From Candidatus Saccharimonadota bacterium (GTDB taxonomy: Bacteria; Patescibacteriota; Saccharimonadia; Saccharimonadales; Saccharimonadaceae): a stretch of 64,000 bases of DNA. A program made the translations under genes and the position numbers. Below, one piece after another: positions 27,977 to 64,000 of this stretch. Positions within the stretch are counted from its first letter, which is position 1. Each line of letters opens with the position of its first letter. The stretch spans positions 1 through 64,000 of the forward strand of contig JAFWNB010000003.1 of the NCBI GenBank assembly GCA_017545505.1, given 5' to 3'. The notes below the pieces were generated by a model. That model saw only the letters and a program-made list of their open reading frames with translations, was not told where the DNA came from and did not search any database.

Positions 27977-28055
27977 CAACAAGAAAAGTATCTTTGAGGA
28001 CCATAAGCTTGGTCGAACGGCCTTGAGTGTGTCCAAAAAGATACTTTTTTGTTGC
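27976..28055. repeat. Palindromic element copy 1 (also terminator-like)
   Basis: Arms GCAACAAGAAAAGTATCTTT and its near-complement ending TTTTTTGTTGC enclose the core GGACCATAAGCTT-GGTCGAACGGCC-TTGAGTGT-GTCC (27998-28034). The same core, with other arms, lies at 42597-42636 and 57687-57723. The inner stem GGTC/GGCC covaries with GGCC/GGCC and GGGC/GCCC in the other copies. The T-rich right arm would also stop rpsG transcription. Confidence 0.8.
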
Positions 28056-51074: not shown

Positions 51075-54000
51075 TTGTTTAAAAGAAAAACGCTATTTTG
51101 GTGCGTTTCGTCTGTACTGAGTATAGTATGTGTTTTTTGCTTGCAGAATTCTGTTTATGGTGCCGCCGTACAAAGCAACCTCACGATGACAGTGAGCGAT
51201 GATCTTCTAGAATATTCGATCACACCTTCACCTGGTGGAACCTTCGGCAAATCCAGTAATAACACTATCAGCATCACAACAAACAACTATACTGGGTATT
51301 CTTTATCGATTGCCACAAACGAATCGACGAGCATGCTAAATAGTGATGACGTTGAAATTGAATCTATTAGCTCTTCAATAGATGAGTCAACTTTTTCTTC
51401 CAATAGCAGCTACAATAATCAATGGGGATATAAACCCAGCCAATATGTTACGACTAATGGCGGAATCAACACAATAGTTCAAAATACCAATTATTTACCA
51501 GCGCCATCAATGAGTGGTGATCTTTTGGCGGTAACAAATACCGCAAATAGCACCGCAAACACCTATACCTTGACATTTGGTGCAAGAGTTGACACAACTC
51601 TACCGGCTGATACATATTCCTACACCTATATCCTTACTGCAGTCACAAACTCAATCGTTTATAATATAACTTACGACGACAACACCACCGATACTGTCAC
51701 CAACATGCCAGTTCCAAATCCTCAGGCCATAACAATAGACGGCAGTACTCCGGCAGAAGAAAGTTACGCAACACTTTCTGACGCAATTCCAGTGCGCAAC
51801 GAAAAGAAATTTGCCGGTTGGTGCGATGTAGCCACAACTCCAGATGCCACAACCGGAGACGACACTTGTTCAGGAACGCTTTATGAGGCAGGCGATGACT
51901 TGCCAATCGATCAAACTGCAGCGCCAAATATTACTTTGTATGCTGTTTGGGTGGATACATTGTTCCCAATTGTTTGGAATCATATGGATCCCTGCACGTT
52001 CAATGGTGCAACCAATGGAAATATAACAGGTTCTGAATGCGAAGAATACTGGGATGTGAGATTTATTGATACTGGTATTCCATTATATAGCCAAACTAAT
52101 TTCAGCAAAGATTATGAAATTCATTTCACAATTGACCACTATCTTCCTAGTGAGCAGGTAGATTTTTATGGTTCTGAAGATAATGGTCAGCAGACTTTCG
52201 TAAATGATAAGCTTGGTTCTAATGCGGGTGACAAGAAGGCCCCTGGTGTCGTCGTAAGGCGTAATGGTGGCAATAATATAGATGTTAATTCCAAATATAG
52301 TGATGCCCAAATAAGTGCTCCGTATAATTATCAACAAGTCAGTGATGTTTCCGTCTTCAGGTTAGATGGCACTATATATTATAGTTTGAATGGCGGTCCG
52401 CTGATTTTCCTCCAAGATCTCCCATCAAATTACAGCCAGTTCTTTGGTCTTCATACTTGGTTTGGTGCTTATCCAAGAGATGACTGTACTGGCGATGATT
52501 ATGTCTGTACTAATGCTAAACGTATCTTGCAGGGTACTTTGTCTAATATGTATATTAGGCTAGGTGAGTATTCTGATGACGACGTTCATACCATTAACTT
52601 CAAAAAGAATGATGGCACAACTACTAATGAAGCAACTTATTTAATTAAAGACGGTGGTTCAATTACTACTTTGCCGTCCGCCCCAACTTACACTAATCAC
52701 ATATTCCAGGGTTGGTTTACGACGCAAACTGGTGGCACTGAAGTAACTGCTTCTACTGTTCCGACTGCTTCAACGGATTATTATGCTCATTGGCTTGGAA
52801 CTGTGGCAATTGCAGATATTACTACGACTCAAATAGCTCTTCAACCTGGCAATTCAGAAACTATCGTAATAGCAAACAGTAACGAGCTTGAGCCATACGA
52901 ATTTAGTTCTGATCATCAAGGCGTCGCCACAGTTGATCCGGACACTGGTGAAGTTACGGCAGTAGCGGCTGGTACGGCAACAATTACAATAACCGGAAAG
53001 CTTTCTGGTGAGACTAAAACTATTCCTGTTACGGTAGCTGGACAAACTTATCAAGTTTATTTTGATTCGCAAGGCGGTTCTGCGGTTAGTCCAAATCCTA
53101 TAGAAGTGGGTGATGGTGGCACGATTAATCCTTTGCCGACATCTATTAAGGCAAATAGCGAACTTGAGGGATGGTATACTGAGCCAAATGGTGGTGGGAC
53201 TAAACTATCAACTACAACTGTGTTTGTATCAAATACCCCGAAACAGTACTACGCAAATTGGGTAGAACAGCAGTATGTTTGTAAGCCAGCTACATCGCTT
53301 CATGTTGAACCATGTACAAGAACCAGTGCTGGGTGTGCTGCGGCCGGTTATACTAACAAAGACATTACCTATGGCTCACTTATCGAACAAGGCGCCACTT
53401 CCTTGACCGCCGGTAATGCTATGACTTGTGACATCAATGCAGATGGCTATTTTGACGAGGCGGATGAGAGATTCTATTATTTGACCGATGTAGGCGATAA
53501 TGCCGCATTGATTTACTATAAGAGTATTAATAATAACGAAAACCTTTGGAACGATGCCTTGACGCTACTCCCAACTTCAAGCACAACTGGTTGGACTAAC
53601 CCTCATCTAGTAACATTTGGCGCCGGTGATTACAATGGTAAAGTCGCAAGATATATGAGCTATAACGAAGCTAGAGCAACCTGCAATAATAGCACTAACA
53701 ACTTTGGTACTAATGGGAAATGTGTGTACATTCTTGAACAATCTAATTTCGCCTACACTAACATACGTGATGGCTATTGGCTAGGGAGCACCAATAATGC
53801 TCGGGTTCATACATCTAGTCGTAACATCACAACTAATTCTCAGAGAAATGGTGTACGTCCTGTAATTGAGGTGCCGATGGATTATGTATCTCTTCACGTT
53901 CAAGCGCAGTTTGACATTACATTTGATCCACATAATGGTGACTCTACCACTACTGTCACAATTGACGAGGGAGATTCACTTAGTACAAATATTCCAGCCA

Positions 54001-57000
54001 ATCCGACTTATACTGACCATCTATTCCAAGGTTGGTTTACGGCAGCTACTGGTGGCGAACAGATTAATTCCAGCACTGTCCCATCTGGAAATACCACTTA
54101 TCATGCACAGTGGCTAAAGACTGTAGCATTAGCAGAACTCCAGCGAGACACAATTGCGGTTGAGCCAAATAGGACTGCAAATATCGTGGTAACTAATTCT
54201 TCTGAGCTTGAACCCTATACATTTACATCGAATGATACTTCAATTGCTACAGTTGACTCAACGGGCGAAGTAACCGGTGTCACTAATGGCACTACTACGA
54301 TTTCAATGACTGGTACAACTTCTGGTGTCACAAAAACTATTACCGTAAATGTCACGACATTGCTCCCAGTAACTCAAGCAATTATCGGAAATACCGATCT
54401 TACCACAACGGTGGGTGGACAAACTACTGTCATAGTTACTAACTCTGCCGAACTTGAACCATACTCTTTCTCCTCTAGTGATACTTCGATTGCTACCATA
54501 GATGCTTCTGGCGTGATTACCGGTGTAAGCGCTGGAACTACAAGCATCATTATGACTGGCATAAATTCTGGGCTCACAAAAACTCTTGAAGTAGAAATCA
54601 CTGCCGCACCTGTAACAATGTATACTGTAACCTTTAATCCAAATGGCGGTACGTTTAGCAATCCAAGCGATAGTTCGAAACAGGTAGAAGAAAATACTGC
54701 AGTCGGAGCTTTGCCGACGCCGACTAAGGCTAACTACATGTTCTTTGGCTGGTACAAGGATGATGGTACTTTCTATCAAGAAGTTTATCCTGAAGAGGTT
54801 ATTAGTGACGCTGTAACGTACTATGCGAAGTGGATCGAAAACACTTCTAGCTTCCCGATTGTCTGGGCGGAGACTAATGCTTGTACCTTTAATGGGGCAT
54901 CATATGTAACTGGTGATTATTGTCTTGAGGATGCCGTGTCTGGCACTTCAATTGATAAAACTAAGAATTATATTGATAGTGCAATTCAACTATTCTCGCA
55001 GGCAAATTACCAGAAAGACTTTGAAGTTGGGCTCAATATCGTGTCATATGATGGTAGCAGTTCAGTAAATCAAGCTACATTTGTAACTTCTAAGGCAGAG
55101 AACTTGTCTGGTTGGCCTGGATTTACGCTAAGACGAAGTGGTTCCAGCGCAAATCTTGAATTAACTGAAAGATTTAGTATGAATTCACAAGCTGTTGCTG
55201 CGCCGGTTGTGGCTATAAGTAGCGTAAACCAGGTAAAGATTGCAAGAATTGGTGAGAAGATTTACTATTCTTGGAATGGTGCACCATATACATTCTTGCA
55301 AGATATCAAAGAAAACACTACACGTTTTGATACTAATGTGTGGTTCGGTGCTACATTAAATTCCGCTGGTACAGGTTCGCAGCGTCCGATTTATGCAACG
55401 TTTACTGATATGTACGTCAGACTTGGTGTACCTACTGATTACGTAATTGAACTTGATGTTAATGATGGTTCGATGAGCGAGCCAAGTAGCTTTACGGTTA
55501 CAATTGGTGATGAACTAGGGACCTTGCCGACTCCAACTCCGCCAAATGAAAATTATACCTTTGTTGGGTGGTTTGACGAATCGGTTTCGCCAGCCGTCCA
55601 GGTTACTTCTACCACAAGACCAGATGGCAATAAAAAATATATAGCGCATTATTCCTATGATTCGTCTGATGAACCGGTAATATTTAATATCGCTAATGAC
55701 GCCCTTCAAGGATATCAGACTCTTATCAATAGTTGGGTGCCAAGTCCGATTAACATCACTACATTCAATCAAAGTTCACCGATCAACAATTCGACCTGGG
55801 GCGACACAAGCGAACTTTCTGAGCAAGAATTCTGGCAGGGTATAAAAGACAATTTTGAAGATAATCTCTGTTCAATACCTAGCTACGGTGATGCCACCAA
55901 GCCATTATCCTCGCTTTCTAACTGGGGAAATGGTTCGGTAGACTGTTCGAAGCCAAGAGCTTATGACACGAAGATTGGCGCAGCGCTTAATGTCTACCTT
56001 GACGATGAAAATGGTGCTCAAGTTGCATATACTAACGCAACGAATGGCATTATACATAACATGATTCCTGGCCAGACATATTATTGGGAGAAAGCAGATG
56101 ATAGCATGGTCTATGGCTATGTGACGGCTACTTCTGTAAACGGTAGAAGGCCAATTGAGCTTAGCGCAAATCGCAATACTCGTGACCTTGGTGGTTTGCC
56201 AGTGACTTACACAGACAGCAATAACCAAACCGTGACTGGTACGACTGCCTATGGTAGATTATTCCGCGGTGAAAGGCTATGGAATACACCTGCGACTGAA
56301 CTTTATAATCTAGGTATCAATAAACAGTATGATGTGGGCGATCCTACCGAATATGCAAATGATACGAAACTCAGCGATTATAAATGGGATCCAGTAGTCC
56401 ATTACAATTTCGACTATAATTCTGGTGACGAAAACAATGCTTCATCAAACTATATGAAAGCCTGGACCGCCGTGACCGATATCATGACCGATATTACAAG
56501 CGCCAACGATCCAAAAAACATTTACTTCCACTGTCGCGTAGGCGCCGACCGTACTGGTACCACGGCATATCTACTTGAGGGTCTCCTTGGCGTACCGGAT
56601 GAAGCTAGATATGAGGAGTATGAGCTTACGAACCTCTCTGGTCTTTACGATAGAACTAGGTATTACAAGCAAAAGACTAGTACCAATAATTTGAAGTTTG
56701 TCTTCATGATGGAATATGTAAAAACTAATGCGGACATCCTCAATTGGTACATGAGCAATCCAAATTCCGATATGAACTTAGTACAAGCCTTTAGGTCGGC
56801 GATGACAGTTGTGTCGAATTCGGGTAATTCCGGACAAAATAATACTTCAGGACAGAACTCACTAAATAGCGTGTCTCCCACCAGCAATAGGAGCATAACA
56901 AATGCAAATCCAAACAATAATACCGATACTAACTCGGCAAGTAACGGATATATGGGGCCTCTTGGCATCTCAAGAACAACAAACGCTGCAACCGATGCTA

Positions 57001-57131
57001 GTAGTAGCGCAATTATTGAGCCAGGGAACTCATCGATCGGAGAAATCGCCGTTCTAGCGACTGCCGCCGCATCCACTGCCGCCATTGCTCTTGCATTAGT
57101 CAAAAATCATAATGACGACGAAGAACAATAA
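51075..57131 (+). CDS. Giant secreted surface protein with Big_2, InlB repeats and a C-terminal tyrosine phosphatase domain
   Basis: 2018 residues from a TTG start (51075) with GGGAGGA 5 bases upstream. Signal peptide to about 30 and the shared beta-module (about 30-205). InlB-type repeats ending LYAVW, YYAHW, YYANW, YHAQW and YYAKW follow. Two copies of a lectin-like module lie at about 296-500 and 1258-1455, both starting FPIVW and sharing a CTFNGA segment and YYSxNGxPxxFLQD. Three Big_2-type Ig units are seen (for example ELEPYEFSSDHQGVATVD). Residues about 1690-1890 form a Y_phosphatase3-like domain: NRNTRDLGG, LFRGERLW and the active-site loop HCRVGADRTG with Cys1820 and Arg1826. A low-complexity Asn/Ser stretch and a hydrophobic segment (about 1987-2007) with an acidic tail end it. 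Exported phosphatase or adhesin; targets unknown. Confidence 0.88.
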   Translation: MFKRKTLFWCVSSVLSIVCVFCLQNSVYGAAVQSNLTMTVSDDLLEYSITPSPGGTFGKSSNNTISITTNNYTGYSLSIATNESTSMLNSDDVEIESISSSIDESTFSSNSSYNNQWGYKPSQYVTTNGGINTIVQNTNYLPAPSMSGDLLAVTNTANSTANTYTLTFGARVDTTLPADTYSYTYILTAVTNSIVYNITYDDNTTDTVTNMPVPNPQAITIDGSTPAEESYATLSDAIPVRNEKKFAGWCDVATTPDATTGDDTCSGTLYEAGDDLPIDQTAAPNITLYAVWVDTLFPIVWNHMDPCTFNGATNGNITGSECEEYWDVRFIDTGIPLYSQTNFSKDYEIHFTIDHYLPSEQVDFYGSEDNGQQTFVNDKLGSNAGDKKAPGVVVRRNGGNNIDVNSKYSDAQISAPYNYQQVSDVSVFRLDGTIYYSLNGGPLIFLQDLPSNYSQFFGLHTWFGAYPRDDCTGDDYVCTNAKRILQGTLSNMYIRLGEYSDDDVHTINFKKNDGTTTNEATYLIKDGGSITTLPSAPTYTNHIFQGWFTTQTGGTEVTASTVPTASTDYYAHWLGTVAIADITTTQIALQPGNSETIVIANSNELEPYEFSSDHQGVATVDPDTGEVTAVAAGTATITITGKLSGETKTIPVTVAGQTYQVYFDSQGGSAVSPNPIEVGDGGTINPLPTSIKANSELEGWYTEPNGGGTKLSTTTVFVSNTPKQYYANWVEQQYVCKPATSLHVEPCTRTSAGCAAAGYTNKDITYGSLIEQGATSLTAGNAMTCDINADGYFDEADERFYYLTDVGDNAALIYYKSINNNENLWNDALTLLPTSSTTGWTNPHLVTFGAGDYNGKVARYMSYNEARATCNNSTNNFGTNGKCVYILEQSNFAYTNIRDGYWLGSTNNARVHTSSRNITTNSQRNGVRPVIEVPMDYVSLHVQAQFDITFDPHNGDSTTTVTIDEGDSLSTNIPANPTYTDHLFQGWFTAATGGEQINSSTVPSGNTTYHAQWLKTVALAELQRDTIAVEPNRTANIVVTNSSELEPYTFTSNDTSIATVDSTGEVTGVTNGTTTISMTGTTSGVTKTITVNVTTLLPVTQAIIGNTDLTTTVGGQTTVIVTNSAELEPYSFSSSDTSIATIDASGVITGVSAGTTSIIMTGINSGLTKTLEVEITAAPVTMYTVTFNPNGGTFSNPSDSSKQVEENTAVGALPTPTKANYMFFGWYKDDGTFYQEVYPEEVISDAVTYYAKWIENTSSFPIVWAETNACTFNGASYVTGDYCLEDAVSGTSIDKTKNYIDSAIQLFSQANYQKDFEVGLNIVSYDGSSSVNQATFVTSKAENLSGWPGFTLRRSGSSANLELTERFSMNSQAVAAPVVAISSVNQVKIARIGEKIYYSWNGAPYTFLQDIKENTTRFDTNVWFGATLNSAGTGSQRPIYATFTDMYVRLGVPTDYVIELDVNDGSMSEPSSFTVTIGDELGTLPTPTPPNENYTFVGWFDESVSPAVQVTSTTRPDGNKKYIAHYSYDSSDEPVIFNIANDALQGYQTLINSWVPSPINITTFNQSSPINNSTWGDTSELSEQEFWQGIKDNFEDNLCSIPSYGDATKPLSSLSNWGNGSVDCSKPRAYDTKIGAALNVYLDDENGAQVAYTNATNGIIHNMIPGQTYYWEKADDSMVYGYVTATSVNGRRPIELSANRNTRDLGGLPVTYTDSNNQTVTGTTAYGRLFRGERLWNTPATELYNLGINKQYDVGDPTEYANDTKLSDYKWDPVVHYNFDYNSGDENNASSNYMKAWTAVTDIMTDITSANDPKNIYFHCRVGADRTGTTAYLLEGLLGVPDEARYEEYELTNLSGLYDRTRYYKQKTSTNNLKFVFMMEYVKTNADILNWYMSNPNSDMNLVQAFRSAMTVVSNSGNSGQNNTSGQNSLNSVSPTSNRSITNANPNNNTDTNSASNGYMGPLGISRTTNAATDASSSAIIEPGNSSIGEIAVLATAAASTAAIALALVKNHNDDEEQ

Positions 57132-59407: not shown

Positions 59408-61173
59408 TCAATAGTCCCCATCAACGTGATGAACACAACGAATCGGGTAACCATTATTCTTAAGTGAAGACGTAGCAAGAATTTCAGACATTGAATAACC
59501 AGATAAATTAAAAACATTCGCTGAAGTTTCAGAGGAAGATGAAGCAGACCAGTACTCGCCATAATAACCTGGGTTAGTGTAACCGCTATAGTTTCGCACA
59601 CCGGAATTAACAAAATTATAAGGAAAACTTCGCAATTCAGAAACACCATGTCTTGAAATGAGGATATAATATTCGCTATCATTACCAGACGTTGAATAGC
59701 TAATCGGCAAATTCCAATAATGCGGGCAAATAGAAGTTCGTGTAGAAGGTGAAACACTTGAAGAAACACTCTGCGTAGTTGCACTAGCCGCTGCCCAGGT
59801 GTAATAGTTTCCATATTCAAAGGATGCGTCATAAATTGACTCTGGAGAAGTATTAATGGCGACCATATTTCTATTATCAAAACGAGGAAATAGATATTTA
59901 GTAGAATTGCTTATAGTATATTTAGCCCCACTTCCGCTAGCCCCATAGAAAATAATAGTTTTATCCTCCTGGGTCCCATCAGTATTATTCTGAACATAGC
60001 TCAGATTATTATAATTAGTCCCATTCCAAGAACCGGATTCAGGATTAGCTAAACCACCAAACACTCCTCCATATCCCTCTGAATTATTTCTAAAATTCGT
60101 GATACTAGTATTAAAACCAGTATCTGAAGCAACACTCGTACCACCAATACCACTATAATTAACCATTTTTGAAACTATATTAACTGTTCCTAGCCTTAAG
60201 TTCTCCATCATCCAACAAATATTGCCTTGTCTAACCACAGAATAAGTTTGCCCATCGCGCACATCAGTAAGTGCAGTCACATTACCGTCCGGTATAGATG
60301 AACAACGATAACTCTGCATATCGCCAATTGATTCAACCCAAACTGCGTAAAGAGTGGCAGTATGGTCATTAAAATCAATATCCGCCCCAGTAATAGCTTC
60401 ATTTGGACCAAAAATTTTATCCGTACTATTAACGGTTGCATTCTGGTTTGTACTCCAACCGGCAAAACCATAACCAGTTTTATAAAAATTAGGAGCAAAA
60501 AGAGTGGTCGAGCTCGAAGACGTATTAGATTCAAGTTCATTTTTTGCTAAATCCATAGCACCAGCAGTAGCTCCATTTCCGTCATAGGTAATAAAATACG
60601 GACGATAAACAGACGCAATTAACGTTTGTCCCGCAAAATCGGGATTGACAGATTTACCAACATATTCTCCGGATTTATTATCAGTACTTATCGTACTAAT
60701 GAAATCATATTCCTCCCTGTACCAATTCTGTATATTACCATCTATATCAAGCGTCCAAGTACTGTCAAACCCAACTGGCTCTTCGTAATTGCCAGAAATA
60801 GCTCGTACGCTACAACCTACGCTTGGCAACCGTTCATAAATAGTATTAGGCTTGTTGGAATAGTAAACTGGATAAAATTTTGCATAAAAACCGTAATCAT
60901 AACCCTCTAATGGCTCTTCTCCAACCCTCGACGGATACATGCTGTATTCTAAACTATTATTGTTAATTATATAAGCTCTTTGGCTAGATACATTACTAGA
61001 ATCAGATTCACCAAAACCAACATGAATCGCGCCTTCCTTGTCGCCATCTGTAGATATAAAATTATAGTCACCCGCCTCAACCGCATAATCAATCATTATC
61101 TTTATCGCGTCAGCACCTGGAAAACTGATATTTCCAGAAGCATAATCAGATTGTGAATAAGCATGTTCTTGTT
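59408..61173 (-). pseudogene. C-terminal part of a surface protein, out of frame after a G8 tract
   Basis: About 590 residues follow the poly-G tract in the frame that begins GEQEHAYSQSDYASG. Content: beta-rich region, an InlB-type repeat (YKTGYGFAGWSTNQNATVN...LYAVW), then one Fib_succ-type domain (DVRDGQTYSVVRQGNICWMMENLRL, ICPHYWNLPI, final IRCVHH). There is no good start codon or ribosome site at its beginning, so it is the continuation of the 282-residue N-terminal ORF. With seven G's the two would give one 861-residue protein. It is either phase-off or a sequencing error in the tract. Confidence 0.8.
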
Positions 61174-61994
61174 CCCCCCCCAGAAGCAATATTTGTAGTC
61201 ATTGCTTCTTGATAATTACTACCAACGTATCCATAACGACCAGGTTCGCATACCTGAGCATATTTTACTGTATTAGTCATTTTGCCATTTTCAAACAAAA
61301 GGCCACCACCGTCGTACACAATAGTAACTGCATTTTTCAAAGCATCACTCTCTATAAAATCAGGATGAACTAATGTATATTTCACTTTCCCAACGAAAGT
61401 ATCCGGAGCTTGCAATGGCGATATGTAAGCTTGATATGTAGTTCTAAAAGTTGAGCCTACGGCATAACTTCCCACATCGGTACTACTTGTCCGCCAGGCC
61501 ACTCTATCGTAATCATCCGGTACACTATAAAAATCAGAATATTCATCACGAATAGTAATCGGATACAAAGGATTATTCGTGCTATCAGGAAGAATCTTCA
61601 TAGCCCACTGTGATTCATTACCAACTTTACTAGTACCAGTCTGGATAATACTACTATAGCCAACGCTCGAAGATATCATCGAAGTCTCACCTTCATCGTC
61701 AAGTGAAAATCCGATAGCATAAATCGAAAAACCATCAGCATCATTGCAAAAAGCCGTAATTGTACTTTCGCCAATACTAGAGTTAACCTGGCCCGGAATA
61801 ATAGTTGCATTATGAGTGTCCATTCCTACACCGTTTAGCGTACAAGATACCGGCACCGATATATTAACGTCATCAACTACATCATCATCCGCGTGTATAG
61901 AAGACGAAGCGAGCATCAAAATAGAAAACACACAAAAAAATACCAACAAACCGGTAATTCCATAAATGCATTTATAAGGTTGCTGTTTCTCCAT
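61146..61994 (-). CDS. N-terminal part of a phase-variable surface protein
   Basis: 282 residues in the present state. Signal peptide (hydrophobic about 13-33, ending IHA) and the shared N-terminal beta-module (VPVSCTLNGVGMD, ADGFSIYAIGFSLDDEG, ESQWAMKILPDS). It reaches the G8 tract, then runs 9 residues out of frame to a stop. The TGCTATAAT box lies about 45 bases upstream on this strand, and the ribosome site is weak. A truncated secreted form may be made, or the mRNA may not give a useful product while the tract is G8. Confidence 0.82.
   Translation of the reverse strand: MEKQQPYKCIYGITGLLVFFCVFSILMLASSSIHADDDVVDDVNISVPVSCTLNGVGMDTHNATIIPGQVNSSIGESTITAFCNDADGFSIYAIGFSLDDEGETSMISSSVGYSSIIQTGTSKVGNESQWAMKILPDSTNNPLYPITIRDEYSDFYSVPDDYDRVAWRTSSTDVGSYAVGSTFRTTYQAYISPLQAPDTFVGKVKYTLVHPDFIESDALKNAVTIVYDGGGLLFENGKMTNTVKYAQVCEPGRYGYVGSNYQEAMTTNIASGGGTRTCLFTI
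61174..61181. repeat. G8 homopolymer tract (C8 on +)
   Basis: Eight C on the + strand, exactly where the two halves of the surface-protein gene meet. With seven the codons would read TCT GGG GGG GAA CAA and stay open to 59408. Poly-G/C tracts of this length are typical slippage sites of phase-variable genes. Confidence 0.85.
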
Positions 61995-62089
61995 TGCGCA
62001 ATTCTTTCACTGCGCATGTCCATTTTTATATATTACTATTATAGCATAAAAACTTTAATGTCAATAATAATTAATGATATAATATAACC

Positions 62090-63019
62090 ATGAGCACGGT
62101 GGGCATTGCCGAAATCGATAGTATCAAAAGACGAATTCGAGCCTGCGATTATTTAGTAGTCGCACAATTATTTTTGCAAAATAATTTTCTCTTAGAAAAG
62201 CCACTTGAGTTCAACGATATTAAACCACGCCTACTTGGCCACTGGGGTACTTGCCACGGCATTAATGTAGCCTACGCAAATCTAAAAGCACATTTTAAAA
62301 ATAACCCATATTTTTCTTTTATACTCGGGCCAGGACACGGCTTTCCAGCTTTACAAGCCAACCTATTTCTAGATAAAGAACTTTTTAAAATCGACAAAAA
62401 AGCAACTCTAGATAAAGCCGGCATAGAATACATTTGTAAGAATTTTTCATGGCCAGAAGGTTTTCCTAGTCATGCCAGCCCCTTTACCCCCGGAGTAATT
62501 ACCGAAGGCGGAGAACTAGGCTACGCACTTGCCAATGCTTACGGGTTAGCTCTCGGGCATCCAGAAAAAACAATCGCTGTTTTAATAGGGGATGGCGAAT
62601 TAGAAACTGCCACCGCTATAGACTCATTAAATCTGAAAAACCTTTTAGCCGGCTCAAAGAACGGAACAGTCCTGCCAATTTTACATCTAAACGGTTATAA
62701 AATTTCTGGTCCCACTATTTATGCGCGTAAATCCGAAAGGGAATTAAATGAGCTAATCCGCGGATTTGGGTTTACACCGATTATTTTAACTGACAATCCA
62801 GAAGAGTTCCAAGTAAAACTCGACAATAGTCCAAAGTATCCATTTTATATTTTGAAGACCGAAAAAGGATACGGCGGACCTAACCAGTATCAAATGTCAC
62901 ATCAAATTCCGCTTAAAAATCCTGCCACCGACCAATCGGAGCTCATACAAATCGAAGCATGGCTTAAATCATACAATTTTCATGAATTATTTGACGAACA
63001 AAAAGGATTCCAAATATGA
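62090..63019 (+). CDS. xfp: Phosphoketolase, N-terminal (XFP_N) subunit
   Basis: 309 residues matching the thiamine-diphosphate-binding N-terminal domain: IRACDYLVVAQLFLQNN, LGHWGTCHGINVAYANL, ILGPGHGFPALQANLFL, SHASPFTPGVITEGGELGYALANAYG, LIGDGELETATAIDSL (GDG...E ThDP motif) and HLNGYKISGPTIYAR. The enzyme cleaves xylulose-5-P or fructose-6-P to acetyl phosphate. The usual protein of about 790 residues is here cut in the linker; the second half starts in an ATGA overlap. TATAAT (62078-62083) ends 6 bases before the ATG. Confidence 0.93.
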   Translation: MSTVGIAEIDSIKRRIRACDYLVVAQLFLQNNFLLEKPLEFNDIKPRLLGHWGTCHGINVAYANLKAHFKNNPYFSFILGPGHGFPALQANLFLDKELFKIDKKATLDKAGIEYICKNFSWPEGFPSHASPFTPGVITEGGELGYALANAYGLALGHPEKTIAVLIGDGELETATAIDSLNLKNLLAGSKNGTVLPILHLNGYKISGPTIYARKSERELNELIRGFGFTPIILTDNPEEFQVKLDNSPKYPFYILKTEKGYGGPNQYQMSHQIPLKNPATDQSELIQIEAWLKSYNFHELFDEQKGFQI

Positions 63020-64000
63020 AAAATAATTCTGAAGACACTAGCAAAAAACTATATTCACCGGCAAGAAGAATAGGTGAACTCTTGACCGAACAGTTTAAGA
63101 AAGATCCACACTTTTACTTTTTCTCGCCAGACGAAACTACATCTAATAAATTTGACCAAATCTTTGAGGTAGAAAAACGCGCCTGGAATCTAGAACAAAA
63201 GCCTTGGGATTTACCAGAAAGTGCCAACGGCCGCATTATTGAAATGTTATCCGAAAATGTTTTATTTTCAGTCATGACAGGACATCTAGAAAATAACGAA
63301 AAAGCCATGATGGGAAGCTATGAGGCATTTTATCCAATTATAACTTCTCAAATTCTTCAACAGATAAAGTTTATCAAACAATCAAAAAAAGTTAGTTGGC
63401 GTAAACCAATCCCAGCCGTGAATCTACTTTCAACATCAACCTGTTGGCGTCAAGATCATAACGGATTTACCCATCAATCACCAGCTTTGATTTCTACATT
63501 ACTGTCACATCCATCTAATCTTGCTAACTGCTTATTCCCGGTAGACGACATAGCCGCTGAAATAGCATTTAATTATATGATTGGTTCAAACAATGTTGTA
63601 AATCTTACAACATTTGATAAAAACGAACGTCCTCGTTATACTAACCTAGAGCAAGCCAAAAAACAACTTGATGACGGCGGTGCTACAATATTTGATTTTG
63701 CATCAGATCCTAATCCAGATTTTATTTTTGCTGCCGCTGGAGATATTGTTTCTCACGAAACCTTAGAAGCAATTAAAATCATAAAAAATGATATGCCTGA
63801 AATTAAAATTCGTTTTATCAATATTAACGCTCTCTCTTACCGGGCAATCGGCACGACGGAAAACAAACTAAGCACAGATAAATTCAATCAACTTTTTACA
63901 CTAGACAAACCAATCATTGCAAATTTTCATGGATACCCAGAAACATTAGAAAATATTTTAGAAAACTATACCGAGCGACGACGCTTACGCGTGCACGGGT
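63016..64000 (+). CDS. xfp: Phosphoketolase, middle/C-terminal part (continues beyond window)
   Basis: Open from ATG 63016 to the window end, at least 328 residues. RRIGELLTEQFKKDP, FFSPDETTSNKFDQIFE (canonical FGPDETxSNR), GRIIEMLSENVLFSVMTGHLENNEKAMMGSYEAFYPII (canonical GYxLTGRHG.. SYEAF) and LLSTSTCWRQDHNGFTHQSP (canonical TSTxWRQDHNGFSHQ) identify the second ThDP domain and start of the C-terminal domain. The ATGA overlap with the N-terminal ORF predicts coupled translation and a two-subunit enzyme. Confidence 0.93.
   Translation, partial: MKNNSEDTSKKLYSPARRIGELLTEQFKKDPHFYFFSPDETTSNKFDQIFEVEKRAWNLEQKPWDLPESANGRIIEMLSENVLFSVMTGHLENNEKAMMGSYEAFYPIITSQILQQIKFIKQSKKVSWRKPIPAVNLLSTSTCWRQDHNGFTHQSPALISTLLSHPSNLANCLFPVDDIAAEIAFNYMIGSNNVVNLTTFDKNERPRYTNLEQAKKQLDDGGATIFDFASDPNPDFIFAAAGDIVSHETLEAIKIIKNDMPEIKIRFININALSYRAIGTTENKLSTDKFNQLFTLDKPIIANFHGYPETLENILENYTERRRLRVHG

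Follow-up and report, generated by a model that had tools for sequence, protein, structure and literature searches.

In the Saccharibacteria genus to which the analysed DNA belongs, poly-G tracts very probably act as a contingency system by which secreted and surface proteins are switched, through tracts in promoter spacers and through coding tracts close to the signal peptide. Within the stretch of DNA analysed (64 kb in its full length, hereafter the window), a gene whose product is predicted to lie at the cell surface is broken at a run of eight G's, and the proposal that this gene is a simple-sequence contingency locus, subject to translational phase variation and assembled in its OFF state, is about evenly poised. 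The joint statement, that a genus-wide system operates in these MutS-less genomes of ~0.7 Mb and includes the window gene among its coding switches, falls a little short of an even chance. The genus context is the strongest part of the case, and the claim for the window locus is tempered by the scarcity of tracts in its own genome, as the window species carries none of nine or more.

The N-terminal and C-terminal ORFs of the gene (Table 1) overlap by 44 bp with a one-base frame offset, and the G8 lies within the overlap, bearing out the initial annotation, which had two ORFs meeting at eight G's; its arithmetic for a joined frame of 861 residues also agrees with the ORF coordinates. Given this offset, the tract is positioned such that a change in its length would switch the reading frame. 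The N-terminal frame crosses the tract as ...NIASGGG, continues as TRTCLFTI and then reaches a stop, eight residues past the last glycine of the tract, while the C-terminal frame, with ...LLLGGEQEHAYSQSDYASG, remains free of stops over 593 codons. The tract is located mid-gene, near amino acid 274, and the C-terminal ORF lacks a signal peptide of its own. No second lesion was found in the 593 downstream codons, and this undecayed state of the C-terminal part indicates that the break is either recent or recurrently reversed.

Table 1. Features of the broken gene, in window coordinates, and its most similar complete genes in the genus.
Feature	Location	Strand	Remarks
-35 box TTGACA	62059..62064	minus	gene's own promoter
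-10 box TATAAT	62038..62043	minus	spacer 15
N-terminal ORF	61146..61994	minus	282 aa; signal peptide/TM helix and conserved all-beta module
Hydrophobic N-terminal helix	61911..61976	minus	residues 7-28; from a model; putative signal-peptide or anchor role
All-beta module	61365..61847	minus	~residues 50-210; predicted model
G8 homopolymer	61174..61181	minus	meeting point of both reading frames
C-terminal ORF	59408..61189	minus	593 codons open; InlB/List_Bact-type repeat and FISUMP domain
List_Bact_rpt/InlB-type repeat PF09479	60419..60598	minus	25 bits, just under the Pfam cutoff of 27
FISUMP domain TIGR02145	59429..59818	minus	61.5 bits, above the NCBIfam cutoff of 41.65
Orthologue L004/L105	G018		841 aa; one frame
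Orthologue L103	G003		744 aa; one frame
Orthologue L104	G193		741 aa; one frame
Orthologues L005, L006, L008			846-863 aa; one frame

The G8 is the sole G/C run longer than five in the window, in which A/T runs reach a maximum of seven. Markov shuffles of the window contained a G/C run of at least eight in 10-20% of cases, and by itself the tract is therefore nothing unusual; the informative point is that, across 57 ORFs, the one evident frame break falls at the sole long G run. The genome, 707,176 bp in 7 contigs, contains 19 G6, two G7 and two G8 runs and no G tract of at least nine, and no poly-G promoter was found in it. The only other G8 (L002, 1501-1508; contig C6 of G000, 27994-28001, minus strand) is preceded by A8 and ends 6 nt before the ATG of a 131-aa ORF, in the Shine-Dalgarno region, and a matching A8-G9 arrangement occurs in a sister species (L079), 5 nt before an unrelated ATG.

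The domain claims of the initial annotation were upheld for FISUMP, and for the helix and beta-module by the structural model, while the InlB repeat fell narrowly below its cutoff. The N-terminal module is present in 88 of 174 genus genomes (E<=1e-20); it shows weak fold similarity to TasA and to chaperone-usher pilin subunits (best E 7e-4, TM ~0.3-0.5), and a PDB sequence search with it returned no significant match. The PF09479 repeat is clear in two other large window proteins, and many further FISUMP/InlB-repeat matches occur in the genome, both on other contigs and in the window. A scan of the genome contigs returned a single distant relative only, phage records contained no match to the C-terminal protein, and a literature search found no paper on FISUMP in Saccharibacteria. 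Elsewhere in the window, a giant protein of 2018 aa (51075-57131, plus strand) carries five List_Bact repeats and three Big_2 domains together with a tyrosine-phosphatase domain (PF13350, residues 1695-1895), an unusual mix for a predicted secreted protein.

The promoter of the gene is consensus-like, a perfect TTGACA-15-TATAAT, and a poly-G promoter could be rejected for it, as the spacer TTAAAGTTTTTATGC contains no G run. The gene is solitary, standing between a neighbour that we take, by eye from its sequence, to be uvrB and a phosphoketolase pair. The phosphoketolase (62090-64000, plus strand) is itself encoded by two ORFs with a 4-base overlap, with XFP_N on the first and XFP and XFP_C on the second, which looks like a clean division at a domain boundary and not a frameshift.

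Among complete genes of the genus, those most like the window gene have a single open frame of 741-863 aa through the corresponding point (in G018, G003, G193, G044, G054 and G036); a further relative, L007, matches the C-terminal part only. In the G018 orthologue the N-terminal piece aligns up to residue 286 and the C-terminal piece from residue 287 in the same frame, identifying the window break as a frameshift of one gene. The orthologous ORFs contain no G run longer than five and no tract at the corresponding site, so that a conserved tract at this site was rejected; the tract is unshared and, on this sequence comparison, probably arose in the lineage of the window species.

The recognition domain of MutS (MutS_I, PF01624) was absent from all 174 genus genomes in a search for which 11 of 14 control genomes were positive. 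A survey of the genus, restricted by design to G9 or longer, found such tracts in 97 of the 174 genomes, with lengths reaching 20. Reading of 76 distinct tracts, including both G8s of the window genome, revealed two recurring settings, namely the promoter spacer and the first codons or signal peptide of secreted proteins. In the promoter setting, TTGACA is followed by a few bases, then by G9-G19 and directly by TATAAT or a close variant, a sigma-70-type arrangement. Among 71 tracts whose members were not chosen for the TANNNT promoter motif, 25 were directly followed by TANNNT, against a 2% background and two in the mirror control, which rejects a chance-only origin of the genus tracts, and 18 had a -35 box match of at least 5/6 against a background of 6%. 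Genus-wide, G8-TANNNT occurs at 116 sites in 61 genomes, compared with 18 sites for the reversed pattern. Perfect TTGACA was present at 30 of the 59 such sites read, with spacers of 11-22 nt and nearly all of 14-22 nt, where the usual -35/-10 optimum is 17. Beyond the genus the promoter pattern is less frequent: of the genera sampled, 31 of 156 in the order have at least one site, as do 45 of 241 in a phylum sample, and a few lineages have several.

A signal-peptide-like start, by a crude hydrophobicity rule, was found in 29 of 53 ORFs downstream of poly-G promoters, and such promoters precede N-module paralogues of the window gene at L076, L116, L184, L197 and L199. Poly-G control of the whole N-module family was rejected, as G6 or longer lies near the promoter in two of 39 members read. 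Spacer-filling tracts of 9-19 were also seen in many genus genomes, at L136, L158, L146, L199 and L209 among other loci, often upstream of secreted proteins. Tracts of the coding setting occupy the first codons, the signal peptide or a position further in, mostly within the first ~25 codons; the flanking frames match in the assembly at L092, L094, L098, L159 and L168, and are mismatched at L074, L081, L084, L154, L157, L160, L163, L169 and L170. Tract lengths also differ between near-identical copies in one genome, in four pairs: L206 (G15) and L208 (G10), which have identical 40-bp upstream flanks; L189 (G10) and L193 (G9); L160 (G10) and L162 (G9); and two L209 tracts (G10 and G11). Several contigs of the genus assemblies end at or near poly-G (G114:C7 end, 7192; G114:C29 end, 4697; G112:C24 end, 9984; G110:C24:1-9), as if broken by length heterogeneity or by poor read coverage of the tract.

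Under the phase-variation proposal, replication slippage would change the length of the G tract, and transcription would be driven by the gene's own promoter whatever that length. Only certain lengths would then give the full-length product of ~860 residues, and at G8 translation would stop past the tract to leave a secreted N-terminal fragment of 282 aa. We infer a variable tract length in the window species, reversible switching, and a protein that is exposed at the surface and subject to diversifying selection. The intact orthologues together with the undecayed C-terminal part make phase variation at this locus plausible but unproven. The weighing rests on assembled sequence from one genome per species, and the points that favour the proposal are the position of the tract, the open downstream frame, the intact orthologues, the absence of MutS, the practice of the genus and the tract-length result from Neisseria. 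Against it stand the lack of any tract of at least nine or any poly-G promoter in the genome, the mid-gene position of the tract, the tract-free orthologues and the frequency of such runs in the shuffles. The statement in the initial annotation that the gene is switched off by its tract therefore stands in part: the sequence does show a predicted secreted surface-protein gene whose frame breaks at a slippable tract, and many poly-G tracts in the genus, which lacks MutS, occupy switch-like positions in genes for secreted proteins. The phrase 'switched off by' goes further and can be held only conditionally, given the tract-free orthologues, the mid-gene position of a tract only eight long and the lack of any tract of at least nine in the genome. 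As the genome contains neither a tract of at least nine nor a poly-G promoter, the poly-G system may be inactive in the clade of the window species.

An alternative to phase variation is that the assembled tract length is wrong, through a consensus or assembly error, and that in reality the gene is unbroken. Indel errors fall most often in homopolymers, no other G/C run in the window is as long as the G8, and the orthologues are intact, all of which would fit such an error. However, the assembly otherwise looks clean, with 57 ORFs covering 92% of the window, and 140 of the 161 homopolymers in the window (A/T of six or more, G/C of five or more) lie inside intact ORFs. Judged from the ORF layout there is no other evidently broken gene in the window, which makes sequencing error less likely, and overall this reading is considered improbable, though it retains appreciable weight. 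A recent fixed frameshift is likewise regarded as rather unlikely. Here one slip in a MutS-less lineage would have knocked out one FISUMP-type surface gene among many redundant ones, and what remains would be a young pseudogene or a secreted protein stably cut short, in keeping with the many FISUMP/InlB-repeat matches elsewhere in the genome, the missing MutS, the lack of tract conservation in orthologues and a genome otherwise poor in long tracts. This reading has to contend with the 593 open downstream codons free of a second lesion, and with the expectation that a G8 would keep slipping in a MutS-less background.

Recoding, in which slippage during translation or transcription of the G tract would let a single DNA sequence give two products, one short and one long, appears very improbable. 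The G-rich slippery run within the overlap of two open frames is weakly in its favour, but the downstream frame needs a +1 (or -2) shift and not the usual -1, and the slippery site is kept in no orthologue. As the downstream frame lies at +1, a programmed -1 frameshift could be rejected.

The Saccharibacteria known so far spend their lives attached to other bacteria, and it is an open question in the field by what means they vary their contact with the host or evade phages. If the phase-variation proposal is true, a stochastic on/off repertoire of G-tract-encoded secreted proteins in MutS-less genomes would be a mechanism testable from existing metagenome reads. The contingency mechanism itself is classical, and its genus-wide use in Saccharibacteria appears to be the new part. 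This use appears to be unreported: a literature search, whose coverage left out most subscription journals, found no report of poly-G switching in Saccharibacteria or Patescibacteria.

Among known systems, the window gene resembles the poly-G/poly-C contingency genes of Campylobacter, Helicobacter and Neisseria in having a G tract in a surface-related ORF at which a change in length alters the frame. Lengths of at least eight are in the unstable range in those genes (PMC5084427, PMC2823697, PMC539331), and in N. meningitidis homopolymers of eight or more are predominantly variable (PMC5084427), so that the window G8 lies at the short end of the range. The window gene differs from these in that its tract is near amino acid 274 where theirs are at the 5' end, in belonging to an unrelated phylum and unrelated protein families, and in being known from one assembled tract length. 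Within the CPR/Patescibacteria, the precedent found for local hypervariation of one gene is the hypervariable repeat gene of Gracilibacterium BD1-5, which varies within the population (PMC6851277); it differs from the window case in consisting of 9-mer coding repeats and not of a homopolymer switch. In Neisseria phase-variable promoters of the porA type, poly-G lies between -35 and -10 (PMC3899988), and the sister-species tracts, as read from their sequences, are arranged in the same way, with a -35/-10 spacer of mostly 14-22 nt filled by the G tract. This likeness is limited to the relatives, as the spacer of the window gene has no G tract. Taken across the genus, the tract architectures match known poly-G phase variation, including that of porA (PMC3899988) and of Helicobacter canadensis (PMC2823697).
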